The notes under the pieces: generated by a model
Seen by the model: the letters and a program-made list of their open reading frames with translations, nothing else
Told to the model about the DNA's origin: nothing
Databases searched by the model: none
Part shown: piece after piece, positions 13,961 through 16,101 of the stretch
Position numbering within the stretch: the stretch's first letter is position 1
How the letters are laid out: every line of letters begins with the position of its first letter
Program-made: the position numbers and the translations under genes
Origin: Myxococcaceae bacterium
Lineage (GTDB): Bacteria > Myxococcota > Myxococcia > Myxococcales > Myxococcaceae
DNA: 32,126 nt
Assembly (NCBI GenBank): GCA_019686135.1
Contig: JADGHL010000053.1
Coordinates: 1 to 32,126, forward strand
Direction: 5' to 3'

Positions 13961-14497
13961 ATGACGATGAAGCAGGTCGGAGAGGTGAATGACGCAGCGA
14001 CCGCCGTTCTGCCGCCTGATCTGGGGAACGAGCCGGACCTGGCCGCGGAGCTGACGTTCCACCCGCCGACCGACGAGGACATGAACCAGGTCGCGTCGCT
14101 CCGGGCATCGTCCGAGCCGTGGGCGAGCCGGGGCGAGAAGCCTGAGCAATCGCTCGAGGCGCTGACCAAGCTCCGCCCGTTTATCCAGGTCGCGAAGCTC
14201 CGGGGCGATGTGGTCGGCTACGTCACGGTCGAGCGGGATGGCCCGGTTCAGGGGGCCGCCTACATGCGCAACATCGTGGTGAAGCCGGACCTGCGGCAGC
14301 GCAAGCTCGGCACCCGGCTGCTCGAGCAGGCGATGCAGACCGCGCGGGACATGCACCGGCGCACGCTCGCGCTGCGCGTGGATCCCGCCAATGGCCCGGC
14401 GGTCAGCTTCTACCGCGCCAACGGGTTCACCACGGTGGCCACGGTGGTGTCGAAGAAGAGCGGCAAGCTGCGGCTGTTGATGTCGCGCGAGCTGTAA
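13961..14497 (+). CDS. GNAT-family N-acetyltransferase
   Basis: The 178-residue protein has a GNAT core in residues ~35-175: 'VVGYVTVERDG', the acetyl-CoA binding strand-helix 'RNIVVKPDLRQRKLGTRLLEQAM', and the C-terminal 'LRVDPANGPAVSFYRANGF' block typical of RimI-like enzymes. ATG 13961 is well supported by GGAGGAGG five bases upstream. The substrate cannot be told from sequence. The first ~30 residues are an acidic extension outside the domain. A strong terminator follows 30 bases after the stop, so it is probably monocistronic. Confidence 0.85.
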   Translation: MTMKQVGEVNDAATAVLPPDLGNEPDLAAELTFHPPTDEDMNQVASLRASSEPWASRGEKPEQSLEALTKLRPFIQVAKLRGDVVGYVTVERDGPVQGAAYMRNIVVKPDLRQRKLGTRLLEQAMQTARDMHRRTLALRVDPANGPAVSFYRANGFTTVATVVSKKSGKLRLLMSREL

Positions 14498-14525: not shown

Positions 14526-14562
14526 ACGGCCGCTCCACAGACGGGGCGGCCGTTCGACTTTT
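14526..14562 (+). terminator. Intrinsic terminator of the GNAT gene
   Basis: An 11-bp stem (one G-U), ACGGCCGCTCC (14526-14536) with GGGGCGGCCGT (14543-14553), and a 6-base loop are followed by TCGACTTTT. This is a good rho-independent terminator on the plus strand. It insulates the promoter of the next gene. Confidence 0.7.
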
Positions 14563-14574
14563 CGGCGGTCCACT

Positions 14575-14603
14575 TTGACGCACACTTATACACTTTGTAT
14601 AAG
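14575..14603 (+). promoter_or_regulatory. Strong sigma-70 promoter for a leaderless transcript
   Basis: TTGACG (14575-14580) is separated by exactly 17 bases from TATAAG (14598-14603). Both hexamers are close to consensus, unusually so for this GC-rich window. The expected transcription start is 14610-14611, i.e. at or one base before the ATG at 14611. The mRNA should therefore be leaderless; no Shine-Dalgarno sequence precedes the ATG. Confidence 0.7.
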
Positions 14604-14610
14604 TGTGCGT
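14578..14610. repeat. Perfect 15-bp inverted repeat covering the promoter (likely operator)
   Basis: ACGCACACTTATACA (14578-14592) and TGTATAAGTGTGCGT (14596-14610) are exact reverse complements around a 3-base centre. The palindrome covers the -35/-10 spacer and the -10 hexamer and ends one base before the ATG. This is the geometry of a repressor operator. As an RNA hairpin it would lie upstream of the predicted transcript start, so it most likely acts as DNA. Confidence 0.75.
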
Positions 14611-15045
14611 ATGAGTCGTCCGTCCTACAAGAAGGCGCTGGAGGATGCGATCGCCGAGTACGAGTCCCTCCGCCGCGAGCGGGACGCGCTCGAGGCGCGG
14701 ATGGCGCAACTCGCGCAGACGATCGGCTCGCTCAGCCGGCTGTGCGGGCTGAAGGCCGGGGTCGAGCTGGGCATCACCGACGCGTGCCGCGCGATATTGC
14801 GCAGCTCGAAGCGCGCGCTGACTCCCACGGAGATCCGCGACCAGCTCCAGGCGATGGGGTTCGATCTGTCGAAGTACGCCAACGGGCTGGCGGCCATCCA
14901 CACGGTGCTCAAGCGGTTGCACGGCGCGGGCGAGGCCGACCTGCAGGAGACGCCGGAGAGGAAGCAGGGCTACGCGTGGAAGGGGACCTCGTACGTGCCC
15001 TTCGACATCGCGACGCTCATGAAGCTCTGGGACGACAAACGCTGA
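14611..15045 (+). CDS. Small coiled-coil / winged-helix-like protein
   Basis: 144 residues from ATG 14611 (MSRPSYKKALEDAIAEYESL). A TTG at 14575 is in frame but would be translated through the promoter palindrome, so it was rejected. Residues ~1-45 form a charged coiled coil (EYESLRRERDALEARMAQLAQTI). Residues ~58-125 look like a winged helix: 'TDACRAILRSSKRALTPTEIRDQLQAMGFDLSKY' and 'AAIHTVLKRLHGAGEADL', followed by a wing-like 'GYAWKG'. Similar uncharacterised proteins occur in several environmental phyla. It may be the repressor that binds the palindrome in front of its own gene; this is inference. It converges on the hydrolase gene with six bases between them. Confidence 0.75.
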   Translation: MSRPSYKKALEDAIAEYESLRRERDALEARMAQLAQTIGSLSRLCGLKAGVELGITDACRAILRSSKRALTPTEIRDQLQAMGFDLSKYANGLAAIHTVLKRLHGAGEADLQETPERKQGYAWKGTSYVPFDIATLMKLWDDKR

Positions 15046-15051
15046 GAGCGG

Positions 15052-16101
15052 TCACGCGTCGCCGTTTGCAGGCGTGGCGTGCCGTTCGAGGAACTCCATC
15101 ACGCGGGGATACAGCTCCTCTGGCGCGTGCCGGCCGAGCATGAGATCGCCATGCCCGTAGTCCGCGCGAAAGCCCGCTTCGCGCCCGGCGACGACGACTT
15201 CGGTGGGGCCGCGGACATACCGCGCGGTGTGGCGGACGGCGTCCGGCGGCGCGAGCAGGTCGCACGCGCCGGCGATGAGGAGCGTCGGCACGCGCACCGC
15301 GGCGAGGCCCCGCTCGTAGTCGAACTTGCGATCGCCGCTCTGCCAGCGTCCGGTGGTGATCCAGTCGAGGAACTGGCGCCCCACTCCGCCCGCGACGTCC
15401 GCGCCCACGTTGACGAGCGCCTTCTTCCGGGTGTCCTCGTCGAGGTTCTCGGGGCACACGAGGTACCGCATGAACGAGTCGGGCGGTGGCACCACCACGG
15501 CCAGCTTCGCCAAAGACTCCAGCGGTATCGACGGCGCGGACAGAAACGGGCGCACCAACCGGGCGAACGGTTTGAGCCCCTTCTGCACGGCGTAGGTCGT
15601 GGGGCTGCCGATGGCGGCGATCGCCCGGATCGGCGCGGCGGGGTTGCGCCCGACGTGCGCGAAGGCGAGCAACCCGCCTTTGGAGTGGCCCACCCAGAGC
15701 ACCTCTTTCGCGCCCGCCTCCCGCACCGTCCTCAGCGCGGCGAGGACGTCGTGATCGACCTGGCGATCGAAGCTCGAGGTGTGCGCTCGGCCCGCTTCAC
15801 CGCGGCCGCGGAGCTCGAGGATCCACGCCTCGAAGCCGCGTTCGGCCAGCCGCCGCGCGAGCGTGAACCGCTCGTCGAAGTCGAAGGTGAAGCGGTTCGC
15901 TCCCAGCCCGTGGCAGAGGACGACCGGCTCGACGAAGCGGCGTCGACCTCGCGGGTGATAGCGCGCCAGCGCCACGCTGCAGCCATCCGCGGTCGCCACC
16001 TTGTGGAGCGCGTCCGGCTCGAAGCGCAGACGCCACCGCTCGAACCCGAACGGCAGCCGGGCGGCTCCTCTCATCCAGCGTGCAGCGGCGACTTCATCCA
16101 A
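15052..16101 (-). CDS. Alpha/beta hydrolase
   Basis: The 349-residue alpha/beta-hydrolase has oxyanion motif LCHGLGANRFTFD (~62-74), nucleophile elbow GHSKGG with S140, likely acid D281 (LLIAGACDLLAPP) and base H317 (DYGHGDLMLG). The pattern resembles lipase/acid-lipase and PHA-synthase-like hydrolases. The substrate is unknown. No signal peptide is seen, so it is likely cytoplasmic. The start is TTG 16101 with AGAGGGG nine bases upstream. An alternative ATG at 16074, without a ribosome site, would remove nine residues. It lies 83 bases downstream of the helicase gene on the same strand. Confidence 0.82.
   Translation of the reverse strand: MDEVAAARWMRGAARLPFGFERWRLRFEPDALHKVATADGCSVALARYHPRGRRRFVEPVVLCHGLGANRFTFDFDERFTLARRLAERGFEAWILELRGRGEAGRAHTSSFDRQVDHDVLAALRTVREAGAKEVLWVGHSKGGLLAFAHVGRNPAAPIRAIAAIGSPTTYAVQKGLKPFARLVRPFLSAPSIPLESLAKLAVVVPPPDSFMRYLVCPENLDEDTRKKALVNVGADVAGGVGRQFLDWITTGRWQSGDRKFDYERGLAAVRVPTLLIAGACDLLAPPDAVRHTARYVRGPTEVVVAGREAGFRADYGHGDLMLGRHAPEELYPRVMEFLERHATPANGDA

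Follow-up and report, generated by a model that had tools for sequence, protein, structure and literature searches.

The element at positions 14575–14613 of the analysed stretch of Myxococcaceae DNA (32,126 nucleotides, hereafter the window) is probably the combined promoter and operator of a leaderless regulator gene that represses itself. RNA polymerase would use the forward-strand promoter TTGACG-17-TATAAG and start transcription at approximately 14610–14611, such that the message begins at the AUG or within one base of it. The encoded protein, presumably dimeric via its N-terminal helix, would use its winged helix to bind the dyad TTATACA-CTT-TGTATAA and, because this dyad covers both spacer and -10, would exclude polymerase, leading to a low, self-limited protein level. 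In the closest relatives the same switch would drive a two-gene operon of the regulator and a PCMT-like methyltransferase, and the window copy would be an orphan gained by horizontal transfer, retaining the switch but not the enzyme. Two features are shared with the class of leaderless autoregulated repressors: a predicted dyad operator that overlaps the gene's own promoter and is conserved with the gene, and a -10 element near enough for a predicted start at the initiation codon.

A previous sequence-only reading had described a TTGACG-17-TATAAG promoter, an exact inverted repeat with 15-bp arms around three bases over the spacer and -10, an ATG directly following the repeat, and an AT-rich site in a GC-rich window, all of which are borne out. 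The -35 element TTGACG (14575–14580) is separated by a 17-nt spacer (14581–14597) from the -10 element TATAAG (14598–14603), which lacks the final T and is therefore omitted by a strict sigma-70 scan. The strandless 33-bp perfect inverted repeat (14578–14610), with 15-bp arms ACGCACACTTATACA and TGTATAAGTGTGCGT around the 3-bp centre CTT, covers the last three bases of the -35, the spacer and the -10, and its right edge abuts the ATG start codon (14611–14613). No other perfect inverted repeat in the window (loop ≤8) is as long; the runner-up has 10-bp arms, and the longest arm in Markov-1 simulations of the window (n = 40) was 13 bp. The G+C content of the 33-bp site is 0.39 versus 0.70 window-wide, and 20 of 32,093 33-mers in the window are equally AT-rich. 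Within the repeat, the predicted operator core CTTATACA-CTT-TGTATAA (14585–14602, forward strand), the right half-site of which is overlapped by the -10, corresponds to the family consensus TTTAnACA-N3-TGTATAA. The core TATACANNNTGTATA occurs once in the window when up to two mismatches are allowed.

A perfect 15-bp stem would be stable in read-through RNA, and where transcripts run in from the upstream GNAT acetyltransferase gene (13961–14497, forward strand) the inverted repeat could conceivably function as an attenuator or terminator hairpin in the RNA. This is extremely unlikely, however, as a T-run is absent on both sides, the terminator scan made no call and Rfam yielded no match. Furthermore, what homologues conserve is a core dyad in the DNA, imperfect and lacking long arms, and a transcription start at the ATG leaves the repeat outside the main transcript. 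Just past the GNAT gene, a separate GC-rich inverted repeat at 14526–14553 (ACGGCCGC/GCGGCCGT, 12-nt loop) is perhaps the terminator of that gene; the terminator scan found no qualifying site there.

The predicted start at 14610–14611 is based on the spacing from the -10, with the same geometry seen in 16 homologues. The best Shine-Dalgarno-like match ahead of the ATG is the 4-nt TAAG, which itself lies within the -10. In 17 copies (the 16 homologues and the window, where the distance is 7 nt), the -10 is located 6–10 nt from the start codon and no real ribosome site is present. Because of this spacing, leaderless expression looks conserved, and the leaderless geometry claimed from the window extends to these 16 homologues. 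The alternative, whereby the geometry is coincidental and transcription begins further upstream to give an ordinary leader, finds a precedent in the homologue L071, where the distance is 19 nt and a GAGGT ribosome site is present; the short spacing kept in 17 copies devoid of a real ribosome site makes it very unlikely. The genomes listed with leaderless genes by Zheng et al. include Acidobacteria and delta-proteobacteria.

The proposition that the palindrome travels with the gene holds for the core, found in two other phyla, but not for the perfect 15-bp arms. Homologues in Acidobacteriota and in one Gemmatimonadota MAG share TTGACA-N~10-TTTAnACA-N3-TGTATAA upstream, with the half-sites 5 bases apart in one Terriglobia clade. 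In many homologues the motif falls at -25 to -31 relative to the start codon and is individually unlikely when compared with dinucleotide shuffles; as it was derived from the homologues themselves, there is some circularity in these per-sequence values, and less in the clade count and in the rarity elsewhere. In a 13-member clade that includes the window protein (support 99/93), whose proteins are about half identical to it, 12 of the 13 copies match the motif at 12 or more of its 14 bases. The window copy has 13/14, and the exception, L021, has 10/14. When 15 copies are anchored on the right half-site, the -35, the left half-site and the right half-site/-10 stand out from unconserved upstream DNA, with a mean of 0.09 bits per column in the latter versus 1.39 in the left half-site. 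The -35 is conserved as TTGAC(A/G), although it lies outside the motif used. Promoter function does not explain conservation of the left half-site, since this sits in the spacer. More than a third of the wider homologue set has no clear site, and the operator is therefore not universal. In other copies the outer arms are no more symmetrical than under permutation (p 0.11), though long arms are also found in L091 (7/8) and L088 (6/8), and compensatory changes between the half-sites of the core are not significant (permutation p 0.14). As judged from these alignments, it is just the core TTTAnACA-N3-TGTATAA that is conserved, with the perfect 15-bp arms peculiar to the window copy. A second conserved palindrome, ACGTTACGTAYGTACGTAACGT, is found approximately 135–140 bp ahead of Terriglobia homologues (L024:2861, L025:2868, L026:2866 and L027:2865), with 14-bp perfect arms in L024 and one change in L027.

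We searched 18 gene-bearing genomes with the pattern TTTRNACANNNTGTATAA, allowing up to one mismatch. The site was found at the family gene in 12 of the 18, with just three strays (G433, G200 and G871). In the window's genome the sole site at this threshold is that at 14585–14602, and three looser two-mismatch matches are no more than were obtained with a reversed-pattern control. At the level of sequence, the site is a putative autoregulatory self-site as opposed to part of a regulon. An exact motif search of viral contigs returned 94 stretches; with only one match per stretch in a collection this large, the result carries little weight.

The gene at 14611–15045 (forward strand) encodes a 144-residue protein, and homologue N-termini align at the ATG at 14611. 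A coiled coil and a winged-helix-like domain had been proposed for the protein, and structure prediction agrees. The AlphaFold2 model, based on 46 family members (mean pLDDT 85), contains a coiled-coil-like helix (residues 3–45) and a predicted winged helix (55–123) made up of helices 55–65, 72–81 and 92–105, the last being the predicted recognition helix, and a two-stranded wing (109–123). Using Foldseek and VIA-align, residues 50–127 of the model fall among DNA-binding winged helices, the top match being Zur (3mwm; Z 11.0 over 71 residues, 3.2 Å), followed by Fur, PerR, BlaI and MecI domains and linker-histone globular domains (Z 9–10). At the level of the model, these matches indicate common folds, not family membership. 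No Fur profile is among the Pfam matches, mainly the winged helix aligns, and beyond it the model shows just a short helix where the Fur family has a metal-binding dimerisation domain. A PDB sequence search with the family profile returned mainly coiled coils and, weakly, Zur. The nearest Pfam profile is HARE-HTH (PF05066), matching residues 56–98 and also several homologues, at 16 bits versus a cut-off of 25.9 (20.4 bits for the best homologue scanned). The family had been put forward as uncharacterised, and it has no name in the sources consulted: searches of NCBIfam, PHROGs and PADLOC yielded nothing meaningful, Pfam no match above the cut-off, and literature searches returned nothing on it.

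BlaI and MecI repress their own operons, and their operators carry TACA/TGTA half-sites like those of the window core. The modelled winged-helix fold resembles both (1sd4, 1okr, 2d45 and 1xsd; Z 9.0–9.7). The likeness is one of fold only, as Penicillinase_R (BlaI/MecI) is not among the Pfam matches at E values up to 1; the probable dimerisation part is here the long N-terminal helix, and there is no sensor partner gene. The fold similarity to linker-histone domains, together with the imperfect -10, as found at some activated promoters, could point away from a repressor and towards an autoactivator, or a protein of DNA-bending or nucleoid type. We consider this distinctly unlikely: a dyad over spacer and -10 is in the typical repressor position, the -35 is good and the spacer measures 17 bp, and a nucleoid protein needs no unique conserved dyad.

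The most conserved stretch of the protein is the third helix of the winged helix, the recognition helix, which reads NxLAxIHTVLKRL in site-bearing members and DPMASVTTVLNRL in multi-copy paralogues, which have no site. A winged helix could bind other sites, and the dyad might be the operator of another host regulator, with the encoded protein acting elsewhere. This is unlikely given that the window's genome has this one site only, that the site accompanies the gene across phyla, and that the recognition helix varies together with the presence of the site. The multi-copy diverged paralogues (L045, L047, L050, L051, L075, L078 and others) occur in Terriglobia and have the same layout, another recognition helix and no palindromic promoter.

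Returning to the putative self-repressing regulator, a PCMT-like SAM methyltransferase of approximately 290 residues is encoded directly 3' of it in each of the 11 clade relatives for which downstream DNA is available (L020, L021, L022, L023, L055, L088, L089, L090, L091, L093 and L094). The regulator stop and methyltransferase start mostly overlap or abut, and the seven methyltransferases scanned match PF01135 with E values of 1e-14 to 6e-22. In L089 (1246–1579) the methyltransferase match is split over two reading frames, probably a frameshifted copy or else an assembly error. The 32-kb window contains no such methyltransferase gene, and its place is occupied by a convergent alpha/beta hydrolase gene (15052–16101, reverse strand). 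The window gene shares clade and promoter core with the winged-helix/PCMT family; with no methyltransferase downstream, it counts as an orphan within the protein family and not as a copy of the operon.

Distribution of the regulator is consistent with acquisition from elsewhere. A MglA-like gene adjoins the GNAT homologue in 19 of 20 genomes of the same family, as it does in the window (in the last, the contig ends there), and because this adjacency is common to family relatives, the contig belongs to this genome. The gene for the 144-residue protein is single-copy, and among 60 and 189 genomes searched in the phylum it was found in one each, in both cases the window's own. Elsewhere the family is sporadic, being present in 10/396 Acidobacteriota genomes and 1/249 Gemmatimonadota genomes, in 41/200 genomes of one acidobacterial order, where many are diverged paralogues, and in 11/162 of another. 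This sporadic distribution, together with the absence elsewhere in the phylum, fits horizontal acquisition by the window genome. Among relatives, none was found with the hydrolase adjoining the GNAT gene, so these provide no clean empty site. Since the window is devoid of the enzyme gene and the regulator is absent from the other genomes searched in the phylum, the window copy looks like an acquired orphan regulator that kept its promoter-operator; the methyltransferase may have been lost, may never have arrived, or may lie elsewhere in the genome. The search patterns were chosen with a seed alignment (A1) containing six made-up rows, with random changes outside a core of assumed variants; A1 served that purpose only, and each match was verified by tblastn using the real protein. 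Later analyses used real sequences (alignments A2 and A3; in A2 two GTG starts are written as M). Single-protein searches of genome contigs, viral contigs, plasmids and phages gave no match, and weak matches in the window's own phylum were rejected as chance after inspection.

The regulatory logic proposed here is already known, while the regulator family is apparently undescribed. Lambda cI and Tn1721 tetR are mobile leaderless repressor genes, autoregulated through operators overlapping their own promoters, and their products control other genes too. The proposed logic of a leaderless autoregulated repressor is the same in the window; the protein families are unrelated, and the window regulator has a single self-site. 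Lambda cI transcribed from PRM and Tn1721 tetR are the best-studied leaderless mRNAs of phage or transposon origin (PMC9938897). CvkR, a small MerR-type DNA-binding regulator of type V-K CRISPR-associated transposons, is likewise linked to mobile DNA and expressed from a leaderless mRNA; a short palindromic motif, AnnACATnATGTnnT, is found at the promoters it controls, and it represses cas12k and tnsB without binding the core of its own promoter (PMC9938897). CvkR and the window regulator thus have in common a small leaderless regulator (predicted in our case), a promoter palindrome and a link to mobility (putative in our case). They differ in that CvkR belongs to the MerR family and the window gene instead has the site at its own promoter.

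More tentatively, and with rather less confidence than in self-repression, the family may represent a self-contained, transferable regulator cassette whose promoter, operator and start codon are merged within approximately 40 bp. Such a cassette might control a winged-helix/PCMT-type methyltransferase operon, the purpose being, for example, peptide or protein modification, with the regulator also persisting alone as a self-limiting orphan. The promoter accompanies the gene and no host ribosome-binding site would be needed, which fits the suggestion that leaderless messages aid gene function after horizontal transfer. What this apparently undescribed regulator family offers is a readable predicted operator whose conservation spans phyla, together with a co-transcribed methyltransferase. 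Specificity (recognition helix versus half-site), leaderless expression and autorepression are testable with one 33-bp DNA and one 144-residue protein.

In a few copies the site is further removed from the gene, the distance being 160–183 nt in L089, L091 and L094 and about 100 nt in L092. In L091 and L094 (loci L104 and L105) a small ORF of 57–59 codons begins 8–9 nt past the site and overlaps the regulator start at ATGA. From this arrangement, the switch is seen to have remained at the front of the transcription unit in the long-distance copies. The small ORF itself is apparently leaderless and encodes an Arg-rich product with a Trp-rich end, which might serve as a leader peptide or as a methyltransferase substrate.
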